DNA from: Methylocystaceae bacterium
GTDB taxonomy: Bacteria > Pseudomonadota > Alphaproteobacteria > Rhizobiales > Beijerinckiaceae
Direction: 5' to 3'
NCBI GenBank assembly: GCA_009773555.1
Contig: WSXZ01000007.1
Location: 1 to 48,156 of the forward strand
DNA: 48,156 bases
Each line of letters opens with the position of its first letter. Position 1 is the stretch's first letter. This document shows, one piece after another, positions 10,278 to 21,962 of the stretch. Under the pieces are notes generated by a model. The model ran no database searches. It was not told the DNA's origin and saw nothing but the letters and a program-made list of their open reading frames with translations. Made by a program: the position numbers and the translations under genes.

Positions 10278-12245
10278 ATGACACGTCAACGCCTTGGCGT
10301 TTGCTACTATCCTGAACATTGGCCTCAGTCACGCTGGAGCGAAGACGCGGCCATGATGAAGGGTATAGGTCTTTCCTTTGTTCGGATCGGCGAATTCGCC
10401 TGGTCCCGGTTGGAGCCGAGCGAGGGCGCCTATCGTTTCGAGTGGCTGAGCCTCGCCATCGAGGCGCTTGACCGCGCCGGCCTCAAGGTCGTGCTCGGAA
10501 CGCCGACGGCGACGCCGCCGAAATGGCTCGTCGACAAGATGCCGGAGATGGCGGCGCTCGACGCCGACGGGCGGCCGCGCAGATTCGGTTCGCGCCGCCA
10601 TTATTGTTTCAGCCACGAAGGCTACGCTCAAGAATGCGAGCGCATCGTCGAGCTTCTGGCGCGCGCCTTCGGCGGCCATCCCGCCGTAGCGGCATGGCAG
10701 ACCGACAATGAATATGGCTGCCACGACACGGTGCTCAGCTATTCGCCGGCCGCGCTGCAGGCGTTTCGGCGATGGTGCGAGGCTAAATATCGCTCGATCG
10801 AAACGCTGAACGAAGCCTGGGGCAATGTCTTCTGGTCGATGGACTATCGAAGCTTCGATGAGATCGAGCTGCCGAACCTGACCGTCACCGAGGCCAATCC
10901 ATCGCATCTGATGGATTTCCAGCGTTTCTCGTCCGATCAGGTCGTCGCCTTCAACCGGCGCCAAGCGCAGATCATCCGACGTCACGCGCCGGATGCGACA
11001 ATCCTCCACAACTTCATGGGCGCGTTCGTCGACTTTGATCACTATGCGCTGTCGGATGATCTCGACGTCGCCGCGTGGGACAGCTACCCGCTCGGGTTTC
11101 TGGAACGCTCCTCTCACGACGACGCCTTCAAGCTGCGCTACATGCGCGTCGGCGATCCTGACTTTCAGGCCTTTCATCACGATCACTACCGCGCATGTGG
11201 ACGCGGCAGATGGCAGGTGATGGAGCAGCAACCGGGGCCGGTGAATTGGGCGCCGTGGAATCCGGCCCCCGCCAAGGGCGCCGTGCGCCTCTGGACCTTC
11301 GAGGCTTTCGCGGCCGGCGCCGAGACGGTGAGTTATTTTCGCTGGCGGCAGGCGCCTTTCGCGCAAGAGCAGATGCATGAAGCGCTGCTGCTGCCAAACG
11401 CCGCGCCGAATGACGCCTATCATGACGTCGCGCGCATTTCTGAGGAGCTCGCCATGCTCGATGCGCGCGTCGAAACGGCGCGCGCAGAGGTGGCGCTGGT
11501 CTTCGATTATGAAAGCGCCTGGGCGTGGCGCATCGAGCCGCAAGGCCGAGACTTCTCCTATTTCGATCTCGTCATGGGCTTCTATCGGGCGCTGCGGCGC
11601 GCGGGGCTTTCCGTCGACGTCGTTCCGCCGACCGCGGCGGCGATCGCTGATCGAACGCTGATCCTTGTCCCTGCGCTTTTTGCGCCGTCTCACGATTTCG
11701 CAGAGGCGCTGGCGCAAAGCGGCGCGACCATTCTGCTACCGGCGGATCTGCCTCCCGGCGTTTTGCGACGCATCATCGACATTCGCGTCAGACGAGTCGA
11801 AAGCCTTCGGCCAGGCGCACGGATTACGCTTTCCGGACATGGCGCTTTCCTGCGGTGGCGCGAATTCTTGGCTCTCGGCGAGAGCGTCGCGCCCGAGTTC
11901 ACATCGGAAGACGGCGAAACTGCGCTCGCGCGATCCGAGAACGTCTTTTATCTCGCCGGTTGGCCGGACGAAGAATTGCTGAACAACATGCTGCGCCATG
12001 TTGCTCATGTCGCCGGCATATCGACGCTCGATCTCACCGAAGATATCCGCGTGCGCGACAATGGCGCGATGCGCTACATTTTCAATTACGGCGCGGCGTC
12101 GACGGATATTTCGGCGCTGGTCGGCGAAGAGACGCTCTTGATCGGCGAGCGTCTTCTCGAACCTTGCGGCGTCGCCGTCTTCAGGCGTCGGGACTGCTTT
12201 CAACGCGCGGCTCAGAACACCAGCCAAGACGCGACGACAAAATAG
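10278..12245 (+). CDS. Beta-galactosidase, glycoside hydrolase family 42
   Basis: 655 residues, typical of GH42. The N-terminal TIM barrel starts at GVCYYPEHWP. The acid/base Glu lies in AWQTDNEYGCH (about E145) and the nucleophile Glu in WQVMEQQPGPVNW (about E316), both at the positions usual for the family. A trimerisation-type domain (about 395-600) and a small C-terminal beta domain follow. There is no signal peptide, so it acts in the cytoplasm on an imported beta-galactoside. It is divergent from galK-galT, which would take the released galactose. The last 34 nt overlap, tail to tail, with the MgtE-type gene. Confidence 0.93.
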   Translation: MTRQRLGVCYYPEHWPQSRWSEDAAMMKGIGLSFVRIGEFAWSRLEPSEGAYRFEWLSLAIEALDRAGLKVVLGTPTATPPKWLVDKMPEMAALDADGRPRRFGSRRHYCFSHEGYAQECERIVELLARAFGGHPAVAAWQTDNEYGCHDTVLSYSPAALQAFRRWCEAKYRSIETLNEAWGNVFWSMDYRSFDEIELPNLTVTEANPSHLMDFQRFSSDQVVAFNRRQAQIIRRHAPDATILHNFMGAFVDFDHYALSDDLDVAAWDSYPLGFLERSSHDDAFKLRYMRVGDPDFQAFHHDHYRACGRGRWQVMEQQPGPVNWAPWNPAPAKGAVRLWTFEAFAAGAETVSYFRWRQAPFAQEQMHEALLLPNAAPNDAYHDVARISEELAMLDARVETARAEVALVFDYESAWAWRIEPQGRDFSYFDLVMGFYRALRRAGLSVDVVPPTAAAIADRTLILVPALFAPSHDFAEALAQSGATILLPADLPPGVLRRIIDIRVRRVESLRPGARITLSGHGAFLRWREFLALGESVAPEFTSEDGETALARSENVFYLAGWPDEELLNNMLRHVAHVAGISTLDLTEDIRVRDNGAMRYIFNYGAASTDISALVGEETLLIGERLLEPCGVAVFRRRDCFQRAAQNTSQDATTK

Positions 12246-13225
12246 GTCAGGAGGGAAAACGTGTCCTGCACCACGGTCGCGACCGGGCCGGAGCCGAGCG
12301 CTGCGTCATAGCCGAGCCTTGCAAACAACCAAGGCATGAGAAATCCAAACGTCGTTGCGATGGTGCTCGCGACCGCCAGCGAAATCCCGACGGTTGCGGC
12401 GAGGCCGACGCTCGAAAAGAAGAACCAGACGATCGGAAAAGCGAGACCGCCGAGCATCGCGCCGAGCAGCGCCCCGGTGCCGAGCTCGCCGGCAAAAAGC
12501 GGCAGCAAGGCCGAATCGGTGAGGGAGAGGCCGCGGATGACGACGACTTCCGACTGTGTGCCGACCGAATCCGCGAGATAAACGATCGCAGGGATAAAGA
12601 AGGCGACGGCGATATGCGCGCTGAGCGCAGTTTCGAAGCGCGACATCATGGCGGTCGCCGCTGCGCTGCCGGCCATGCCGACAAGCAGCCAAGGCAATCG
12701 ATAAAGCGCGCGACGGTGCGGCGCGGCCGTCAACGCGTCTCTTGCAGCCTCCGACTTGCCGAGGATGCCCACCATGTGATGCAGATCCTCAAGATGCTCG
12801 TCGCGCAAGATGGTCATGAGCGCGCGCGCCGGCACGGCGCCGAGAAATCTTCCTTCGGCGTCGCAGACGGCCAAGATCGACAGGCCCGAGTGAATGGCGA
12901 CGCTGGCCGCAGCTTCGCGATCCGCGCCGAGCGGCACGCTGTAGGCTTCGGCCGTTCGGGCAATGTCATGCAGCGGCGTCGACTCCGGCGCCCCAAGCAG
13001 ATCGCGTATGGCGACGACGCCAATGAGGCGACTGTCTTCGGCAAGCACGAAAACATGCGAGGCGTCGTCGAAACGCTGGCCGATCAACCGCGCCCGCGCC
13101 TCGCCGGCGCTTTCCCGCGAGCGGGCCACAGGCACGGACGTCACAAGATAGCGCCCCACGGTCTGGCCGTTCGTCTCCTCTGGAGGCAGGCGGTCTAGCG
13201 TCGGGGCACTGGGCATTACGGTCAT
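12212..13225 (-). CDS. MgtE-type divalent-cation transporter lacking the N domain
   Basis: 337 residues, against about 450 for standard MgtE. The usual superhelical N domain is absent; the protein starts almost directly with two CBS domains (about residues 22-140), which sense cytoplasmic Mg2+ or nucleotides in the family. The membrane part (about 165-337) has five predicted helices with family motifs: FFIPAIVYLADSVGTQSEVV and the pore-lining GSGPVATVVQDTFSLLTYF, where the Asp corresponds to the Mg2+-coordinating residue. It probably imports Mg2+ or a related ion across the inner membrane. Its 3' end overlaps the beta-galactosidase gene on the other strand. It adjoins a block of metal-transport-like genes. 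Confidence 0.85.
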   Translation of the reverse strand: MTVMPSAPTLDRLPPEETNGQTVGRYLVTSVPVARSRESAGEARARLIGQRFDDASHVFVLAEDSRLIGVVAIRDLLGAPESTPLHDIARTAEAYSVPLGADREAAASVAIHSGLSILAVCDAEGRFLGAVPARALMTILRDEHLEDLHHMVGILGKSEAARDALTAAPHRRALYRLPWLLVGMAGSAAATAMMSRFETALSAHIAVAFFIPAIVYLADSVGTQSEVVVIRGLSLTDSALLPLFAGELGTGALLGAMLGGLAFPIVWFFFSSVGLAATVGISLAVASTIATTFGFLMPWLFARLGYDAALGSGPVATVVQDTFSLLTYFVVASWLVF

Positions 13226-13447: not shown

Positions 13448-13804
13448 ATGAAACCCTTTGGATTTGCGCTAGGCGCGTTGACGGGCGCCGCCGCGGTTTT
13501 GCTTCTCAACCGTCAGGGAACGCAGCGCGTGCGTCCGATCGCCAAGGCGGCGATGAAAGCCGCGGTGATGGCCTATCACGAAGCGCGCGTGCAAGGCGCC
13601 GAACTCGCCGAGGCCGCCGAGGATCTCTTCGCCGAAGCGAAGGCCGAGGCAGTGGCGGATATATTTGCTGCGGCGATGGCCACGGCGCAGACGAAGGCTG
13701 CGCAAGCAAAGACCGAAACGAAGCCCGAGGCGACGTCAAAGCCCGAGGGCGCGGCGCCAGCAGGCGAGGCTCCCGCCTCCCGGGCCGCAAGCGAGAGCGC
13801 GTAA
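13448..13804 (+). CDS. DUF5132-like membrane-anchored protein
   Basis: 118 residues from ATG 13448; an earlier in-frame start at 13358 would add a stretch with no family resemblance. A short glycine/alanine hydrophobic segment (FALGALTGAAAVLLL) is followed by RPIAKAAMKAAVMAYHEARV and an acidic helix (ELAEAAEDLFAEAKAEA), the layout I associate with DUF5132. The C-terminal third is a low-complexity Lys/Glu/Pro/Ala tail. The biochemical role of the family is unknown. The next gene (HMA-like) starts directly after its stop codon, and a P-type ATPase gene lies beyond, so a part in metal handling is a fair inference. Confidence 0.6.
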   Translation: MKPFGFALGALTGAAAVLLLNRQGTQRVRPIAKAAMKAAVMAYHEARVQGAELAEAAEDLFAEAKAEAVADIFAAAMATAQTKAAQAKTETKPEATSKPEGAAPAGEAPASRAASESA

Positions 13805-14248
13805 ATGAACGATGCAATCCTGCCCCTGGCGCAGCTGGCCCACGCCATGCCCGGCCGCGCACGTCTGCGTGTCTCGGACCGCCGCGGCGACGCCGCTTAT
13901 TTCGCTTCGGTCTCCAAGGGCCTGTCGGCGATCGCCGGCGTTCGCAACGTCGAAGTGGCGCCGCTGACGGGCAGCGTGCTCATTCAGCACAGCGGACCCT
14001 TGGCGCGCATCGGCGTCGCGGCGCAGGAGGCGCGGCTCTTTGTCGTCGGCGAAGCGCCTCATGCCGCGCGCGCGGCGCCGGCAGTCTCGATCGACCCGAA
14101 AGCCGTCGCGGCGCTGGCGCTGTTCGCCGCCGCGCTGTGGCAAATGTCTAAGGAGAGCGTTTTGCCGCCGGCGATCACCTTGCTGTGGTACGCGAGCCGG
14201 CTGGGCGGAATCTGGTCGCTGGATGGCGACGGCGGGAATGGCGATTAG
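13805..14248 (+). CDS. Stand-alone HMA-like domain protein
   Basis: 147 residues. Residues about 12-65 follow the pattern of HMA-like domains found in front of certain P-type ATPases: HAMPGRARLRVSDRRGDAAY, then GVRNVEVAPLTGSVLI. There is no C-x-x-C metal pair, so it is unlikely to chelate copper in the classical way. A hydrophobic helix follows at about 100-125 (AVAALALFAAALWQM), suggesting membrane attachment. Its ATG directly follows the stop of the DUF5132-like gene, so the two are co-translated. The N-terminus of the nearby ATPase has the same kind of domain, so this protein may regulate or partner that pump. Confidence 0.65.
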   Translation: MNDAILPLAQLAHAMPGRARLRVSDRRGDAAYFASVSKGLSAIAGVRNVEVAPLTGSVLIQHSGPLARIGVAAQEARLFVVGEAPHAARAAPAVSIDPKAVAALALFAAALWQMSKESVLPPAITLLWYASRLGGIWSLDGDGGNGD

Positions 14249-14250
14249 TC

Positions 14251-15432
14251 CTAACCCCTGAGCGCCTCAGCGAGGTCGGTCGCCTCCCACGGCAGATCGA
14301 GATCGGCGCGGCCGAAATGTCCGTAGGTCGCGAGCGGCAGATAGAAGCCTGCCGGGCCGCACATCTGTGGCGCGGTGCGCAAGCCGAAGCGGCGTACGAT
14401 CGAGCCAGGGCGGAAATCCAGGAGCGCGGCGAGGCGTCTGGCGATTTTCTCATCCGCAAGATAGCCGGTGCCGTAGGTCTCGACCGAGAGACTGATGGGC
14501 TCCGCCTGTCCCGCCGCGTAAGCCAGGTGAACTTCGCAGCGCTCGGCAAGGCCCGCCGCGACGATATTCTTGGCGGCGTGCCGCGCCGCGTAAGCGCCGG
14601 CGCGTTCGATGCGCGAAGGGTCCTTGCCTGACAGCGCGGAGCCGCTCTGGCGCGCGATCTCGCCGTACGTATCGATCCCGTTCTTGCGCCCGGTCAGGCC
14701 CGCGTGGCGCGCCGGTCCGCCGATTTCAAAGGGTTCGCCGGCGTTGACGTGAACCGTCGTGTGAGCGTCCGGCCTCATGTCGCCCGCAAAAAGCGCATCG
14801 AGCGCGATCGCGCGCAACTGCTCGAACTTGGCGTCGTCCATCGCCGCGCCGTCAAAGGCGACGGTCAGCGAAACCCCATAGATTCGTGCGGGGCGACCGC
14901 CGCGAAATTCGACGGAGACTTGCGTCTTGGCGTCGGGCGAGAGCGACGAAAATCCGGCGCGCCGAGCGGCGTCGAGCGCCCGCGCGACCTTATGCGCGAG
15001 GCTGATCGGCGCCGGCATGAATTCAGGCGTATCGCGACAGGCGTAGCCGAAAACATTGGCCTGCTCATGCGCGACGCGCCTGCTGACCGCCGCGTCGTCG
15101 TCAAGCTCCGCTAAAGGCGGCTCGCGCGCTTCGAGCGGCAATTCGACGAAGCTCGTCAGTATCGAGCAGTTGCGCGCGTCGAAGCTCCCCGCGGCGTAAC
15201 CGGCCTCCTGCATGACCGCGCGCGCGAGCGCCGGCAAATCGACGAGCGCGTCGGCGGCGTATCGCGCGGCGAGAAAGACGACGCCCGTCGCCAGGGCGCA
15301 TTCCACAGTTGCACGCGCGCGGTCATCTTCACGCAGCAGCGCATCGATCGCCGCATCGCTGATCTGATCGCAGAGCTTGTCGGGGTGCCCCGGAGTCACC
15401 GACTCCGACGTGAAGATCATGTCAGGCGACAT
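14251..15432 (-). CDS. Divergent methionine adenosyltransferase (MetK) paralogue
   Basis: 393 residues, full MetK length and fold: ESVTPGHPDKLCDQISDA at the N-terminus, LSPDAKTQVSVEF, GLTGRK, SGKDPSRIERAGAYAARHAA, KNIVAAGLAERCEV and YGHFGR are all kept. Yet several substrate residues differ from canonical MetK. The GEITT motif is lost (ARYAAD instead), GDQG is HEQAN (about 122-126), and the Asp before GLTGRK is His (H243). Canonical MetK makes S-adenosylmethionine from ATP and methionine; here triphosphate and metal sites look intact while the methionine side looks changed. Its start overlaps the ATPase stop by 11 nt, so it is the second gene of that operon. It is unlikely to be the housekeeping MetK. 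Confidence 0.8.
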   Translation of the reverse strand: MSPDMIFTSESVTPGHPDKLCDQISDAAIDALLREDDRARATVECALATGVVFLAARYAADALVDLPALARAVMQEAGYAAGSFDARNCSILTSFVELPLEAREPPLAELDDDAAVSRRVAHEQANVFGYACRDTPEFMPAPISLAHKVARALDAARRAGFSSLSPDAKTQVSVEFRGGRPARIYGVSLTVAFDGAAMDDAKFEQLRAIALDALFAGDMRPDAHTTVHVNAGEPFEIGGPARHAGLTGRKNGIDTYGEIARQSGSALSGKDPSRIERAGAYAARHAAKNIVAAGLAERCEVHLAYAAGQAEPISLSVETYGTGYLADEKIARRLAALLDFRPGSIVRRFGLRTAPQMCGPAGFYLPLATYGHFGRADLDLPWEATDLAEALRG

Positions 15433-18400
15433 GGCTTTCTCCGTTGCCGCGCAGCGGCGTCTCTTCGCGATCGGCGATTCTGCCGATGATATCGTTGGCG
15501 AGCGAACTGCCGAGGGCGATGGCGCCGATCCGCAACAGGTCGCCGGCGCCGAGCGGCGACAGGCCGAGAAGGCGCCGGGTCAACGGAAAGAGTTGCACGC
15601 CCGCCTGCAGCAGCAGGGTCGCGCCGACGGCGCCATAAAGCGTCGAATTGGGCGGCCTGCCGACCTCGGAGCTTAATCCGCGTAACTCCGAACGACAGGC
15701 CAGACTGTGGAGCAACTGGCCGCAGGTGAGGCCGTGAAAGGTGACGGTGCTGGCGCGCGCGCCGCCGGCGCCGCCGCCGAGGCTGAAATAGCCGATCAGC
15801 GCCGCGACGCCCATCACCGACCCCTCGCGCAGAATGCGCCGGAAATCGGAGGCGGCGAGAATCGGCGCTTTCGGATCATGCGGCGGCCTGTCGAGCACGT
15901 CCGGCTCCGGCGGCTCAAGCCCCAGCGCGATCGCCGGCAGCGCGTCGGTCGCCAGATTGAGCCAGAGCAGCTGCATCGGCGTCAACGGCTCGCCGCCGAC
16001 AAGGGCGGCGCCGAGCATGGCGATCGTCTCGGATGCGTTGGTCGAAACGAGATAGCGCAGGACCTTGCGGATATTGGCGTAAGTGGCGCGGCCGAGTCGT
16101 ATGGCCTCGACGATGCCGTCCATGTCGTCGGTCGCGAGCACGATGTCGGCGACCTGACGGGCGACGTCGGCGCCTTCGCCGCCCATCGCGATTCCGACGT
16201 CCGCCGCGCGCAAGGCGGGGCCGTCGTTGACGCCATCGCCGGTCATCGCCACGATATGGCCGTGGCCTTGCAGCGCCTTGACGATGTTGAGCTTGTCGAC
16301 CGGGCTGACGCGCGCGAAGACATGCGGCTGCCTCGCCAGCGCCTCGAGCATCTCGGGCTGCATCTTCGCCATCTGCCCGGCTTCGAGCACGCGCAGCTCG
16401 CCGCCATGATTGAGATCGAGGCGCCGCGCGATGGCGAAGGCGGTCGCGCTTTGATCGCCGGTGATCATCACCGTGCGCACGCCGGCGCGATGCAGCTGCT
16501 TGAGCGCCGGGCCGACGCTGGCGCGAATAGGATTCGCGATGCCGGCAAGGCCGAGCCACACGAGATCATGCTCGTCCCGGGGATCGCCGCCCGCTTCGCC
16601 GACCGCGACGCCGAGAACGCGCAGCGCGTCGCCAGCCATGTGTTCATTGGCCTTGAGAATGGCGGTCCGCGCCGGGCCGTCGAGCGGCGCGGCGCCATCG
16701 GCCATGCGGCGGGTCGCGCAACGCGCCAGCACCTCGACCGGATCGCCTTTGACGCAGAGAATGCGCGCGCCGCCGGTCGCTTCGTGGAGCGTGCTCATGC
16801 GCTTGCGGCCTTCCCCGCGCGCCACGCAAGTCGCCATAGGCGCCGATCGCCTCAGAGCGATGGGATCGACGCCCATCGCCATGCCCGCTTGCACCAATGC
16901 GGTTTCGGTCGGCGTGCCGTCGATCTCCCAACCTTTCGCCGCCGGCGCGACGGCTGCGTCGCTGCACAGCGTCGCGGCTTCGAAGAGGCGACGCGCAATA
17001 TCGATTGTTGCGGCGTCGGCATCGACGCCGTCGCGCAACAATCGGCCTTCCTGTAACTCAAACGCGCCATTGTCGACGTGAACGCGCACCGCCGCCATGC
17101 GGTTTTCGGTGAGCGTGCCGGTTTTATCGAGTCCGATCGTCTCGATCGCGCCAAGCGTCTCCACGGCGTCGATCTTGCGCACCAGCACCTTGCGCTTGCG
17201 CATGTCCTGCACGCCCAACGCGAGCGTCGTGGTCGCGACGGCGGGCAGCCCTTCGGGGATGGCCGCCACGGCGAGCGAAATCGCGCTGCGCAAAGTCGGG
17301 ATAAGCCCGTGGCCGCGCAGAAGGCCAAGAGCAAAGACGCAGGCGCAAATGGCGCCATTGACGATGACAAGTTCGCGCTCGACGTCGCCAAGTTCGCGCT
17401 GAATAGGCGTTTGTGGCCGCTGCAGCGCGCCGAGCAACTGCTGCACGCGGCCGATCTCGGTCTGCGCGCCGATGGCGGTGATAATGGCTACGCCGGATCC
17501 GCCGGTCACCGCCGTGCCGCGAAACACCATATTGCGACGATCGGAGACTCCCGTATCCGGCGCCAGAACAATCTTTGCGTCTTTCGGCGCTGGTTGCGCC
17601 TCGCCGGTCAACGGCGATTCGTTCACCGTCAAATCGTCGCTGGCGATCAGTCGCGCGTCTGCCGGCACGAAGGCGCCGCGCTCGATCAGCAGGAGGTCGC
17701 CCGGCGCAAGATCGCGCGCGTCGATCCTCAATCGCGCGCCGTCGCGGACGACGGCGGCGTCCGATAGCTCCTCCGAGGCAAGGCCAGAAATCGTACGGTC
17801 CGCCTGACGCTCGGTGGCTGCGGCGATGCCGGCGTTGATCAGCACCACCGCAGCAATCATCACCGCATCGGCGACGCCGCCGGTGGCCAGCGACACCACC
17901 GCCGATGCGCCGAGCAAAACAATCGGCAGACTGGTCAACTGCTCTGCGAAAACAATCGCAGCCGAGCGCGGCTCTGCGCGGCGGAGCTCGTTACGCCCCC
18001 ATTTCTGCAATCGCTCCGCCGCGTCTTCCGCCGTTAGGCCTCGATCGATATTCGTTTCCAGACGCGCCGCGAGCGCGTCCGTCGCCTCGGCGTGAGCGGC
18101 GCTTTCCGGCGTGAGCGACGCGCCTTCGCCGACGTCCCATGCCGGCTCTTCGGCGACCGCCGCTTCGAGCGCCTGCATCAGTCGCGCGCTTGTGAGGGGC
18201 TGCTGGAATTCGATGAGAGTCGAACCCGTCAATTCGCTGGAGCGAACGAAAAGGACTCCGGGCAGACGTCGAAGCCGCTTCTCGACAGCCCGCGCGAGGG
18301 CTGCGCGGCCGCGCAGCCCCATATGGCGGATCCGCGCGCGGCCGCAACAAGCATCATGAATAAGCTCGGCGCCCGATTGCGCACAGGACTCCACGCCGAA

Positions 18401-18460
18401 GCGACGTGAACCTACGGGCGCGTTCTCTGAGTCCGCTTCAGCCAGGATCATTGAGCACAT
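15422..18460 (-). CDS. P2-type cation-transporting ATPase with HMA-like N-terminus
   Basis: 1012 residues. An N-terminal HMA-like domain (about 34-95: HDACCGRARIRH, then GVLFVRSSELTGSTLIEF) precedes a complete P-type pump: actuator TGE (285-287), IPEGLPA in TM4 (about 401-407), phosphorylated Asp445 in DKTGTLTE, KGDP (571-574), TGD (668-670) and the hinge GDGVNDGPAL (741-750). PEGLP and the NLATDALPAIALGLE segment place it with P2 (Ca2+/Mn2+/Na+-like) pumps rather than CPx heavy-metal pumps, so the fused HMA-like domain is odd. The start at 18460 is kept because the domain begins before the next internal Met (residue 47). metK-like overlaps its stop. The transported ion is unknown. Confidence 0.88.
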   Translation of the reverse strand: MCSMILAEADSENAPVGSRRFGVESCAQSGAELIHDACCGRARIRHMGLRGRAALARAVEKRLRRLPGVLFVRSSELTGSTLIEFQQPLTSARLMQALEAAVAEEPAWDVGEGASLTPESAAHAEATDALAARLETNIDRGLTAEDAAERLQKWGRNELRRAEPRSAAIVFAEQLTSLPIVLLGASAVVSLATGGVADAVMIAAVVLINAGIAAATERQADRTISGLASEELSDAAVVRDGARLRIDARDLAPGDLLLIERGAFVPADARLIASDDLTVNESPLTGEAQPAPKDAKIVLAPDTGVSDRRNMVFRGTAVTGGSGVAIITAIGAQTEIGRVQQLLGALQRPQTPIQRELGDVERELVIVNGAICACVFALGLLRGHGLIPTLRSAISLAVAAIPEGLPAVATTTLALGVQDMRKRKVLVRKIDAVETLGAIETIGLDKTGTLTENRMAAVRVHVDNGAFELQEGRLLRDGVDADAATIDIARRLFEAATLCSDAAVAPAAKGWEIDGTPTETALVQAGMAMGVDPIALRRSAPMATCVARGEGRKRMSTLHEATGGARILCVKGDPVEVLARCATRRMADGAAPLDGPARTAILKANEHMAGDALRVLGVAVGEAGGDPRDEHDLVWLGLAGIANPIRASVGPALKQLHRAGVRTVMITGDQSATAFAIARRLDLNHGGELRVLEAGQMAKMQPEMLEALARQPHVFARVSPVDKLNIVKALQGHGHIVAMTGDGVNDGPALRAADVGIAMGGEGADVARQVADIVLATDDMDGIVEAIRLGRATYANIRKVLRYLVSTNASETIAMLGAALVGGEPLTPMQLLWLNLATDALPAIALGLEPPEPDVLDRPPHDPKAPILAASDFRRILREGSVMGVAALIGYFSLGGGAGGARASTVTFHGLTCGQLLHSLACRSELRGLSSEVGRPPNSTLYGAVGATLLLQAGVQLFPLTRRLLGLSPLGAGDLLRIGAIALGSSLANDIIGRIADREETPLRGNGESHVA

Positions 18461-19008: not shown

Positions 19009-20154
19009 ATGATGAGAAGACGGAGCGCGTCTGTCGCGACAGCCGCCATGCTTTTGGCGATGTCAGCAAGCCCGCGCCAAGCCGACAGCGCCGAACAGGC
19101 GGCAGCCGCCGTGCCGGCGGCCCCGCTCACCAAATTCGAGAAAGCGCCTCAGGGCGAAGCCGAGCAGATCGGGCAGATCATTTCGCTCACCACGCAGCTT
19201 CTGCAGATGCGCTATCCTGAGGGCATGGCGCGGCGCGGCGTGCATCCGAAGGATCACGGCTGCGTCAAAGCGACATTCACCGTCAATTCGGATATTCCCC
19301 CAAATTACCGTGCTGGTGTCTTCGCGACGCCGGGGAAAAAATATCCGGCCTGGATTCGCTTCTCCAACGCCACGCCCTTTCTCGCGCCAGATCTCGGCAA
19401 AAATGGTCCCGACAGCCGCGGCATGGCGATCAAGCTCATCGGCGTCGAGGGAGAAACATTGCTGAACGAGCCCGGCGCCAAAACGCAGGATTTTCTGCTG
19501 ATCAATCTTCCCGGCTTCGCCTTTCCGAACGTCTCCGAATATCTGGAAGTCACAAAAATCCAGCTCGCCAAACACGACGACATCTCGTCTTTTTTCGCGC
19601 CGCCGCTCTCGCCCGAGAAGAAGAAGACCCTGGGCGTCGTCACGAAGATCAAGCAAACCAACGTCGGCAATCCGCTCGAGAGTCCGTATTTTTCGGCGGC
19701 GCCATTTCTTTATGGCTCCGACAGGGTCGCAAAATTCAGCGTGACGCCGAGAAGCGCGGAAAAGACGCCCGTGCCGGCAAATCCAACCACGAATTATCTG
19801 CGCGAGGCGATGAAGAAGAGCCTCGATCCCGCCAATGGCAAGCCGGCCGTCTTCGATTTCAAAGTCCAGCTGCGAAACGACGATTCGCTGCCGGTCGAAG
19901 ACGCGACCGCCGAATGGTCGGAGGCGACCGCGCCGCAGCAAAATGTCGCGACGATCGAGATCGACCAGCAAGATTTCGACAATGCGTTTCAGGTGACGGA
20001 ATGCGAGCACATGGCGTTCACGCCATGGCACGGACTGACGGCGCATCAGCCGATCGGCGGCATCAATCGGCTGCGTCGCGACGTCTATATCGCCTCGTCG
20101 AAGTTTCGGTCGCAGCCCAAAGAGCCGACGGGATTCCCAAAATGGCCGTGGTGA
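19009..20154 (+). CDS. Periplasmic catalase-related haem protein
   Basis: 381 residues with an N-terminal export signal (SVATAAMLLAMSASPRQADS). The core follows the catalase-related (y4iL/SrpA-like) family. HPKDHGCVKATFTV holds the expected distal His, PAWIRFSNATPF and DSRGMAIKLIGVEG follow, and RRDVYIASSKFRSQ near the C-terminus is the likely proximal Tyr region. At 381 residues it is shorter than true catalases, and its relatives are thought to be haem peroxidases or lipid-peroxide enzymes. GGGGAGGGAG (18997-19006) is just before the ATG; a second ATG follows at once (19012). Its end overlaps the di-haem cytochrome gene, pointing to a common redox task in the periplasm. The substrate is unknown. 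Confidence 0.8.
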   Translation: MMRRRSASVATAAMLLAMSASPRQADSAEQAAAAVPAAPLTKFEKAPQGEAEQIGQIISLTTQLLQMRYPEGMARRGVHPKDHGCVKATFTVNSDIPPNYRAGVFATPGKKYPAWIRFSNATPFLAPDLGKNGPDSRGMAIKLIGVEGETLLNEPGAKTQDFLLINLPGFAFPNVSEYLEVTKIQLAKHDDISSFFAPPLSPEKKKTLGVVTKIKQTNVGNPLESPYFSAAPFLYGSDRVAKFSVTPRSAEKTPVPANPTTNYLREAMKKSLDPANGKPAVFDFKVQLRNDDSLPVEDATAEWSEATAPQQNVATIEIDQQDFDNAFQVTECEHMAFTPWHGLTAHQPIGGINRLRRDVYIASSKFRSQPKEPTGFPKWPW

Positions 20155-21962
20155 TGCGTCTCACACGCGCGATCGCGCGCATTTCGTTCGTCGCATGCCT
20201 GACGCTGGCGTCACACGCCTGTCTCCACGCGCCGGCTTTCGCGCAAACGGCGCCGGCCGGCGGCGAGTGGCGCGCCGAGCAGGAAAAAAGACTGAAGGCG
20301 CTCGACGCCTATATCAGCCGCAAGCCGGTCGCCTATCGCTGGTTTGCGGATTTTCCCTTCGGCCTTACCGACGGCGCTCCGTTCATCATTTTGAAGCTCC
20401 TGCCAAAGCTCGCGCCCGAAGAATGGGGAAGCGCGGATAATTTTCTCGACGTCGCCGGTCTCTTCATCGACGGGCGCGATCCGACCTACCCTATCGCGCG
20501 CGGCTTCGGCTGGACCGGACTGGCGCGCGACGATGCAAACGGCGCCGTCGACTACGCGGCGTTGAGTTGCGGCGCCTGCCACATCGGCCGCGTGCGTCTC
20601 GATGACGGCAGTTTGCGCTATCTCGACGGCGGCGTGAACGCGCAGTTCAATCTCGTGCAATATCGCGTCAGAGTCAGAAACACGATCGAGAAGATCACCG
20701 CCGGCGCGACGACGCCAGAGGAGAAGATCGAACGCGCCACTCGAGCCATTCTTACAGCGCTCGACAAGGCGCATGCCCAAGACAGAAATTACTTCTACAA
20801 GAATTACTCCTTCGCCGGCCGCCGCTTTGACGCCGCCTATGAGACGCGCCAGATCGAGCTCTTCATGCAGGACGCGCCGGCGATCGTCGGCAAATTCCTG
20901 ACGCGCGCCGGACTGGAATATGTCTCGCTCCTCGATCTCGTCTACAAGAACTACAAAGGTTTCGAAGAGCAGATGACGCAGGGCTTCGGCGGCATGGCCG
21001 ACGCGACCGGCGTCAGCACGTCGATGGTCTACGCCGCCGCCGAAGCGCGCGGCGAAAATCCCGATCCGAAGACAAGCCTGCCGCCGACGCCGGGCATCAC
21101 CGACTTCATGGCCGTGTGGGAGCAGGAGAAGCGTCTGGCGCGCTGGTCCGCGGATCACACACAACTCGTCGACGGCGGCGGACAATGGAACGGCAATATT
21201 CCGATTCCGATTTTCCGCAACCTCGCCGCCGAATTGACGCTGGGGCTCGGACGCGACACCGACATTCGCATCGCCGCTTTCAGCGAGGATCTGCTGCGCG
21301 ATCTCCCGGCGCCGGTCTACCCCTTCCCCGTCGACCTTGCGCTCGCGAAAAAAGGCGCGGCGCTCTTTGAAGAAAATTGCGCGGCGTGTCATCGGCCGCA
21401 TAACGGCAAGGTCTACGACCTCGGCGTGGATCTCGGCCGGGCGCACGTCGTCAGCGACACGATTGCGAAAAACGCCCGCGATAGTTTCTCAAGGATCTGT
21501 CCGCCGACGCGAGTCGTCGAGATGCCGCCCGCGGGCGACCGGATCGCGCCCTGCGCGAAGTTCGAAGAAATCTCGCTGGAGAACCGCGCCGACGTCTCCA
21601 TGGCCGATCCCGCGACGCATGAGGGCTATAACGCCCTGCCGCTTGGCGGCGTGTGGGCGCAGGCCCCCTATCTGCACAACGGCTCAGTGCCGACGCTCTA
21701 TCATCTCCTCGTCCCGCGCGAGCGCCCGGCCGTCTTCATCAAGAGCCGGCTCGACTATGACAAGAAGCTCGTCGGCTTCTCCTGGGAACCGGCGCAGACG
21801 CTCTCGCGCGAGGGCTATCGTTTCGACACGACGTCCTTTCCGGCGCTTTCCAACAAGGGGCACGACAAGGACGTCATCGAGGACGGCAAGACGCTGAAAC
21901 TCGATTGGTCGGACGACATCCCCGGCGCCATGGCGATCGTCGAATATCTGAAGACGAGGTGA
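20142..21962 (+). CDS. Di-haem c-type cytochrome, RoxA/MauG-like
   Basis: 606 residues from ATG 20142, with GGGA 8 nt upstream; ATG 20154 is the alternative. A signal peptide ends near APAFAQ. Two haem c sites are visible: CGACH (about 143-147) and CAACH (about 413-417). The C-terminal APYLHNGSVPTLYHLLVPRERP is a signature of the MauG/cytochrome c peroxidase-like group that includes rubber oxygenase RoxA, whose size this matches. Such enzymes use one haem for catalysis and one for electron transfer. The gene overlaps the catalase-related gene by 13 nt, so the two are made together. Oxidative attack on a lipid or polyisoprenoid is possible, but specificity cannot be told from sequence. Confidence 0.8.
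   Translation: MAVVMRLTRAIARISFVACLTLASHACLHAPAFAQTAPAGGEWRAEQEKRLKALDAYISRKPVAYRWFADFPFGLTDGAPFIILKLLPKLAPEEWGSADNFLDVAGLFIDGRDPTYPIARGFGWTGLARDDANGAVDYAALSCGACHIGRVRLDDGSLRYLDGGVNAQFNLVQYRVRVRNTIEKITAGATTPEEKIERATRAILTALDKAHAQDRNYFYKNYSFAGRRFDAAYETRQIELFMQDAPAIVGKFLTRAGLEYVSLLDLVYKNYKGFEEQMTQGFGGMADATGVSTSMVYAAAEARGENPDPKTSLPPTPGITDFMAVWEQEKRLARWSADHTQLVDGGGQWNGNIPIPIFRNLAAELTLGLGRDTDIRIAAFSEDLLRDLPAPVYPFPVDLALAKKGAALFEENCAACHRPHNGKVYDLGVDLGRAHVVSDTIAKNARDSFSRICPPTRVVEMPPAGDRIAPCAKFEEISLENRADVSMADPATHEGYNALPLGGVWAQAPYLHNGSVPTLYHLLVPRERPAVFIKSRLDYDKKLVGFSWEPAQTLSREGYRFDTTSFPALSNKGHDKDVIEDGKTLKLDWSDDIPGAMAIVEYLKTR

Follow-up and report, generated by a model that had tools for sequence, protein, structure and literature searches.

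A relative of metK, the gene for S-adenosylmethionine (SAM) synthetase, is part of a four-gene module built around a P2-type ATPase in bacteria of several phyla. The module came to our attention in a 48,156-nucleotide stretch of DNA from a Methylocystaceae bacterium (contig WSXZ01000007.1, positions 1 to 48,156 of the forward strand, in assembly GCA_009773555.1, which holds 4.0 Mb in 144 contigs), hereafter the window. There, genes for a DUF5132-like small membrane protein and a stand-alone HMA_2 protein converge on genes for the ATPase and for a MetK-like paralogue of methionine adenosyltransferase (MAT), which we call the H-form. The four genes form one module, and its recurrence across phyla suggests that an enzyme of core metabolism has been taken into the service of a pump. 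On balance, we favor a reading of the sequences in which the module would be an efflux platform for divalent cations, and its MAT a dedicated, neofunctionalized partner that acts on ATP or triphosphate and thereby tunes the pump.

A module conserved across phyla

Re-reading the open reading frames (ORFs) of the window upheld the coordinates and tight packing of the four genes described in a first-pass annotation: the start codon of the HMA-like gene directly follows the stop codon of the DUF5132-like gene, the MetK-like and ATPase genes overlap by 11 nt, and 2 bases (14249–14250) separate the convergent stop codons of the two gene pairs (Table 1). A protein search with the MetK-like protein (E ≤ 1e-90) found matches in six of 297 genomes of the order, representing five genera; in all six loci, the ATPase gene adjoins and the HMA_2 and DUF5132 genes lie on the opposite strand. 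Three additional H-form loci came from a class sample of 385 genomes, each with ATPase and HMA_2, and DUF5132 was present in two of them when the loci were read as short stretches and in all three after extension of the loci; the MetK of G311, from the same sample, is canonical. A phylum sample (398 genomes) gave 34 matches, and among 30 loci the H-forms were those of the window genome and G324, the others that were read being canonical. All nine loci found by protein search have ATPase and HMA_2 neighbors, carry the same changes at the positions of E. coli MetK residues E55 and D238, and have His at the Asp position of the motif GGPxxDxGLTGRK, which is Asp in 28 of 28 canonical loci read.

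We built a degenerate DNA pattern on the His motif and ran it over 84,980 genomes, obtaining 82 matching stretches in Methylocystis and other Alphaproteobacteria, Gammaproteobacteria, Nitrosomonas, Cyanobacteria, Chloroflexi, Nitrospirae, Desulfuromonas and Trueperaceae (a list that covers all of these loci but L122 and L123). Together with the window, G058 and G108, and with the stretches extended, these make up a set of 85 loci, chosen by nothing other than the MetK motif or the MetK-like protein and not by their neighbors. For 82 of the 85, His at D238 defined the search and is therefore bound to be invariant; nine loci were identified independently of it (six of which are also among the 82) and have His too, and the other residue changes were unselected.

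Directly upstream of the H-form gene and on the same strand, an ATPase gene is found in 84 of the 85 loci; in the 85th, L188, the sequence extends just 2 bases upstream. A stricter requirement on length lowers the count to 83, as the contig of L125 begins 420 bases upstream. An H-form without the pump was, accordingly, not seen among the 84 loci with upstream sequence. Most MetK domains lie −2 to +21 bases from the ATPase stop codon; the extreme values are −122 and +216. DUF5132 occurs in 71 loci and the stand-alone HMA_2 protein in 67, and all four parts are present together in 65. The small-protein pair converges on the ATPase–MetK pair in 46 loci; DUF5132 is upstream and co-directional in 21, which include loci of Chloroflexi, Nitrospirae and Cyanobacteria, and 18 show neither arrangement. 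Co-occurrence of the four families, raised in the first-pass annotation as a check on the unit, thus extends over several phyla and is not random.

Co-inheritance of the pump and the enzyme

Pairwise distances between ATPases and between H-forms are strongly correlated (r = 0.849 over 80 loci; the maximum of 1000 permutations was 0.142). In 19 genomes, the H-form correlates at r = 0.815 with its own ATPase and at 0.315 with the canonical MetK, as expected for a pair that is jointly inherited and transferred. All four genes are under purifying selection, with ratios of nonsynonymous to synonymous substitution (dN/dS) of 0.07–0.33 in seven comparisons between Methylocystis species. The ATPase alignment comprises 80 loci, L125, L151, L188, L195 and L197 being omitted because their ATPase is cut or broken; alignment A2 is without L005, which has a local reading-frame shift. 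H-forms broken by a frame change or stop (L182, L197 and the shifted stretch of L160) were used only where open.

Broken frames of the MetK-like gene, the ATPase gene or both in L160 and L182 (both Methyloceanibacter) and in L197 (Richelia) may reflect real decay or assembly error. Stop-free joint ORFs in L160 and L177 raised the possibility of a natural ATPase–MetK fusion; the ATPase match stops short in them and a frame change is equally likely, and we made no use of them.

One could instead see in the neighborhood the mere co-transfer of an ion-stress island whose MetK-like gene serves another pathway, and the patchy distribution within the order, the recurrence of MgtE and EcsC-family genes in some loci and the existence of ATPases without MetK would all agree with that. 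It leaves unexplained, however, the immediate same-strand adjacency, mostly with overlapping or nearly overlapping genes, in 84 of 84 informative loci, and the match between ATPase and H-form trees although other neighbors vary; we consider it very improbable. A single functional unit, as the first-pass annotation had proposed, is instead borne out by the neighborhood kept in 85 loci, the co-varying trees, the purifying selection and a cyanobacterial fusion of DUF5132 with a membrane hairpin that is described below.

A MAT paralogue with an altered acceptor pocket

The window genome encodes a second, canonical MetK (at G000:C27; 463 bits, above the cut-off of the metK model TIGR01034), so the MetK-like gene is a paralogue. 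That it might be the only SAM synthetase of the cell, which the first-pass annotation had named as fatal to its proposal, is thereby ruled out. At least one further MetK match is present in 81 of the 82 pattern genomes, the exception being G1050, a 1.9 Mb assembly. In a tree, the window protein groups with Methylocystis sequences, and the H-forms are a single clade (support 1.0, branch 0.86) with about 40% identity to canonical MetK. An AlphaFold model built with 41 sequences (mean predicted local distance difference test score (pLDDT) 91.5) has the MAT fold, its best match in the PDB being 5h9u (TM-score 0.90). A phage or plasmid H-form was set aside on identity and annotation: the 167 plasmid and 134 phage matches are all below 60% identity, and many of those listed are annotated metK.

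We number MetK residues as in E. coli and take E55, Q98 and D238 to be Glu70, Gln113 and Asp258 of human MAT by offset, with which the alignments agree. All three are replaced almost throughout the H-forms. E55 is retained in none of the 85, which have Arg (67), Lys (10), His (4) or Gln (4) and are therefore basic in 81; Q98 is retained in two, with Leu (48) and Met (10) the commonest replacements; and D238 is His in all 85. The window protein has R, L and H at these positions. In human MAT, the corresponding residues hold the main chain of methionine (PMC7271947, PMC6850014).

Much of the rest of the active site is kept. H14, D16, K17 and E42 are retained in 84 of the 85 H-forms (one has a gap), and D163, R244, K245 and K265 in all of them; K269 is Arg in all 85. 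The window protein keeps H14, D16, K17, E42, D163, K165, R244, K245 and K265 and has Glu in place of D271. These positions are intact in 29 of 29 canonical MetKs and in 20 of 20 paralogues from 19 genomes with an H-form. The adenine side looks looser in the H-forms, with Phe at F230 in 35 of 85 and Thr never the top residue at T227. Compared with the MetK of TIGR01034, then, the H-form shares the fold and H14, D16, K17, E42, R244, K245 and K265, whereas it differs in E55, Q98 and D238, in K269, in forming a separate clade, in adjoining a P2 ATPase in all informative loci and in being additional to another MetK in nearly every genome.

Human variants associated with hypermethioninemia, including Asp258Gly, make less SAM and keep phosphatase activity (cited in PMC6850014), and the acceptor and triphosphate functions of the fold are therefore separable. 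We infer that the H-form, with an acceptor pocket that is now basic, handles ATP or triphosphate but has lost the canonical way of holding methionine. The first-pass annotation suggested a partner enzyme for making or sensing an adenosyl or nucleotide compound, which would fit the retention of triphosphate and ribose residues and the replacement of those for methionine.

A Ca2+-ATPase-like pump with an HMA_2 domain

The window ATPase has P2-type domains and a PEGLP motif, which rule out a heavy-metal P1B pump, and among solved structures it is closest to Listeria Lmo0841, SPCA and SERCA. Among 80 MetK-linked ATPases, DKTGT is present in 80, as are the M5 Asn and Glu and the M6 Asn and Asp; the M4 Glu is kept in 79, and Gln occupies an M8 position in 79. 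These M4, M5, M6 and M8 positions are taken to correspond to the cation sites of SERCA. The pump thus resembles the P2A Ca2+-ATPases (SERCA, PMR1/SPCA and Lmo0841) in DKTGT and in its M4, M5 and M6 residues, and differs from them in an extra N-terminal HMA_2 domain and in Gln for the M8 Glu, on the same mapping. The window ATPase scores below the equivalog cut-offs for PMR1 (536.6 against 798.3 bits), SERCA (489.4 against 703.4) and PMCA (387 against 507.05).

The HMA_2 match at its N terminus reaches 21.8 bits, under the Pfam cut-off of 30. A direct alignment of the stand-alone HMA_2 protein with ATPase residues 31–89 gives 46% identity, and with a custom model made from these loci the domain is recognized at the N terminus of the ATPase in 75 of 85; the first-pass claim that the domain occurs in both proteins was correct. 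Ca2+ (or Mn2+) is more likely than a heavy metal to be the transported ion, because the ATPase keeps the site residues of Ca2+ pumps and the HMA_2 protein is without a conserved CxxC. Additional P-type ATPase matches lie in tandem upstream of the module in L143 (Roseibium aggregatum SY-2-12) and on both sides of it in L136 (a Beijerinckiaceae metagenome-assembled genome).

Two small partner proteins

The stand-alone HMA_2 protein of the window matches PF19991 at 40.8 bits (cut-off 30), as do 32 of 32 stand-alone relatives at E ≤ 0.01. R18, R20, T55 and Q113 are invariant in these proteins, and neither a conserved Cys nor a conserved CxxC motif was found in the 32, on which ground metal chaperoning through CxxC was rejected. 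A structure model (pLDDT 71.7) shows an HMA-like domain followed by two C-terminal helices, probably in the membrane; Foldseek matched it weakly to HMA domains (best E 0.0079, none at 0.001). CoBaHMA domains are HMA-like, with conserved basic residues and no CxxC, and are found with P-type ATPases. The HMA_2 protein is like them in its basic residues, its want of CxxC and its P-type ATPase company.

The DUF5132-like protein of the window matches PF17195 with E 4.7e-5 and 23.8 bits, under the 25-bit cut-off, and with 25.1 bits when neighbors in frame are included. It has one N-terminal hydrophobic segment, by inspection, followed by a Glu/Ala-rich helix, and E55, D59, A62, E63 and E67 are invariant in a set of 37 such sequences, of which 32 match DUF5132, four YtxH and one HMA_2 at E ≤ 0.01. 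Seven cyanobacterial loci have a longer DUF5132 protein whose C terminus matches the C-terminal membrane hairpin of the HMA_2 partner (hhalign probability 95.2%, E 2.5e-8); a single-profile search gave weak scores for the same match (full E 0.08–3). This match is a natural link between DUF5132 and the HMA_2 partner. At L242:5612-8918 (same order), DUF5132 and two HMA_2-like stretches occur together with a P1-like ATPase, a class read by eye, and the pair seems to serve other pump classes too.

In its build, the DUF5132-like protein is reminiscent of PacL1, a small protein with one transmembrane segment and Glu/Ala repeats that is encoded with the P-type ATPase CtpC and is needed for abundant CtpC and for zinc resistance in mycobacteria (PMC9374683). 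The likeness is one of build and not of family membership: DUF5132 gives no match to DUF1490, and the window protein has no C-terminal His/Asp metal motif of the kind described for PacL1 in that source. The module pump is P2 and CtpC is P1B, and a MetK-like partner goes unmentioned in the account of PacL1–CtpC as far as the source was available.

Proposed mechanism and alternatives

In the mechanism that we favor, the P2 pump would export Ca2+ or a similar divalent cation. The DUF5132 protein, with its membrane anchor and acidic Glu/Ala helix, and the HMA_2 protein, with its basic HMA-like domain and membrane hairpin, would be non-enzymatic partners that assemble with the pump or stabilize it, functionally much as PacL proteins do with P-type ATPases. 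In the MetK-like protein, the Mg2+/triphosphate site is for the most part intact and the ribose-binding Asp is present, but the methionine main-chain pocket has turned from acidic to basic. The protein may use ATP or tripolyphosphate, whether by pairing it with an anionic acceptor in place of methionine or by hydrolyzing or sensing the triphosphate, and this activity would tune or energize the pump. A narrower version, and a speculative one, is that the H-form is a new adenosyltransferase: it would move adenosine from ATP to an anionic acceptor other than methionine, which could be a small molecule or the pump complex, and the resulting product or modification would control a Ca2+-type pump.

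Several findings weigh against this mechanism. In the order, an ATPase search of 249 genomes gave 10 matches at E ≤ 1e-150, and five of these close relatives are without MetK (the other five have an H-form); the MetK-linked ATPases are no clade apart from these five. Well-covered loci without DUF5132 and the stand-alone HMA_2 protein exist (L153, L161 and L167, for example). K165 is retained in 71 of the 85 H-forms and D271 in 66, with Glu in 17, including the window protein. The metK equivalog model matches 41 of 41 H-forms at E ≤ 1e-10, and 8 of 11 scored H-forms pass the TIGR01034 cut-off, the window protein, L116 and L061 falling below it; the H-forms may therefore have some residual SAM synthesis. 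No SAM riboswitch was found in the 13 sources searched, and no match to DUF1490, the PacL family, was found among the 37 proteins of the DUF5132 set at E ≤ 0.01.

The five ATPases without MetK inform the history of the module. Three have a convergent DUF5132–HMA_2 pair, one has HMA_2 only and one stands alone. Four of the five are a clade (support 1.0) that lies beside the MetK-linked ATPases of Roseibium, Rhodobacteraceae, Rhodovibrionaceae and a Hyphomicrobiales bacterium in an 11-member clade (support 0.98, midpoint rooting). From as few as these five sequences, loss of MetK tentatively looks more likely than an ancestral trio, and we dropped the idea of MetK as a later addition, as ATPases with and without MetK are intermixed in the tree. 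The trio of ATPase, HMA_2 and DUF5132 can stand without MetK, and the pump unit is thus wider than the four genes and can dispense with the enzyme.

Might the H-form be catalytically dead and gate the pump by the state of ATP or polyphosphate, either as a sensor of nucleotide or triphosphate or in a structural role? Its largely kept triphosphate and ribose residues, its lost acceptor residues and its obligate adjacency to the pump would suit such a role, as would the result that no recurring SAM-using gene was seen beside the H-form when we went through the 45 largest neighbor clusters by eye. Catalytic residues usually drift in pseudo-enzymes, however, and His14 is kept in 84 of 85 H-forms, with a gap in the remaining one, and we think a dead subunit unlikely. 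The missing SAM consumer points, weakly, to an effect on the pump rather than to a pathway product.

A remaining alternative is that the H-form continues to make SAM, as a second isozyme placed beside the pump for local supply or for expression under ion stress. The MAT fold is predicted with high confidence, His14 and most residues for Mg2+, K+ and triphosphate are kept, and most scored H-forms exceed the metK cut-off, which the window protein misses by 1.1 bits (308.3 against 309.4). The change at Q98 is by itself undecisive, as human Gln113Ala keeps about three quarters of its activity (PMC6850014). Against this stand the canonical MetK in the same genomes and the replacement of three methionine main-chain residues almost throughout the clade, with reversed charge at E55, for which 0 of 49 canonical sequences offer a parallel; we rate continued SAM synthesis as rather improbable. 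The score of TIGR01034 does not separate H-forms from canonical MetKs.

Neighboring genes and regulation

Apart from the four genes, the window has an MgtE-like transporter gene divergent from DUF5132, an optional neighbor that occurs in 29 of the 85 loci, about half of which are from Methylocystis or close kin. Outside Methylocystis, the MgtE cluster is present at 15 of 69 loci and is, by eye and among the 45 largest clusters, a plausible partner. Another protein cluster, likewise plausible, lies near the module at 11 of these 69 loci (including L205:4810-5667), and its one tested member belongs to the EcsC family. An ABC-transporter ATPase cluster (18 loci) was taken as generic, with scattered positions on both strands, and clusters of five to six loci were discounted as mostly close relatives, one six-locus cluster having no Pfam match. 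Beyond the ATPase gene, in divergent orientation, the window holds genes for a catalase-domain protein and a RoxA-like cytochrome c (19009–21962), which are also found near the module in the Methylocystis loci L042, L058, L063 and L118.

Table 1. Coordinates of the module and of features discussed in the text, in window positions
Feature	Position	Strand	Basis
DUF5132-like small membrane protein, 118 amino acids	13448..13804	+	ORF, Pfam
Stand-alone HMA_2 protein, 147 amino acids	13805..14248	+	ORF, Pfam
MetK-like paralogue (H-form MAT), 393 amino acids	14251..15432	-	ORF, three S-AdoMet_synt domains
His243 codon of the MetK-like gene; replaces E. coli D238 / human D258	14704..14706	-	
Arg57 codon of the MetK-like gene; replaces E. 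coli E55 / human E70	15262..15264	-	
P2-type (Ca2+-pump-like) ATPase	15422..18460	-	Predicted start; 1012 amino acids counted from first ATG
HMA_2-like domain, ATPase residues 36-90 (N terminus)	18191..18355	-	
MgtE-like divalent cation transporter with CBS domain; divergent from DUF5132; optional neighbor	12212..13225	-	

Riboswitch control of the module was rejected, as no riboswitch lay near it in the 13 sources at gathering score. Matches to the cyclic di-AMP (c-di-AMP; ydaO) riboswitch occur in the cyanobacterial loci L164:7023-7197 (+) and L184:595-773 (+), the former preceding a glycosyltransferase-like gene near the module and not the module itself, and L126 has a match to a cobalamin riboswitch. 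A scan for promoters and terminators gave matches no more numerous than in shuffled sequences, within their spread. We did not find the four-gene module described in a literature search whose coverage took in few subscription journals and no preprints.

Implications

SAM synthetase is among the most conserved enzymes known. A clade that has swapped exactly the methionine-binding residues, and that adjoins a P2 pump in several phyla, suggests that the MAT fold has a use so far unrecorded, which might be a new adenosyl product or a triphosphate-driven regulator of a pump. A P-type ATPase with accessory proteins is a known kind of system; the altered MAT element may be categorically new. In the roughly 80 species sampled here, the gene would probably be annotated as a second 'metK', given how many H-forms pass the NCBI cut-off, and it may not be one. 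For DUF5132 and HMA_2, families about which little is known, the module also opens a genetic approach. If the adenosylating version of the mechanism is true, an adenosylation-controlled ion pump would be common to methanotrophs, phototrophs and sulfur oxidizers.

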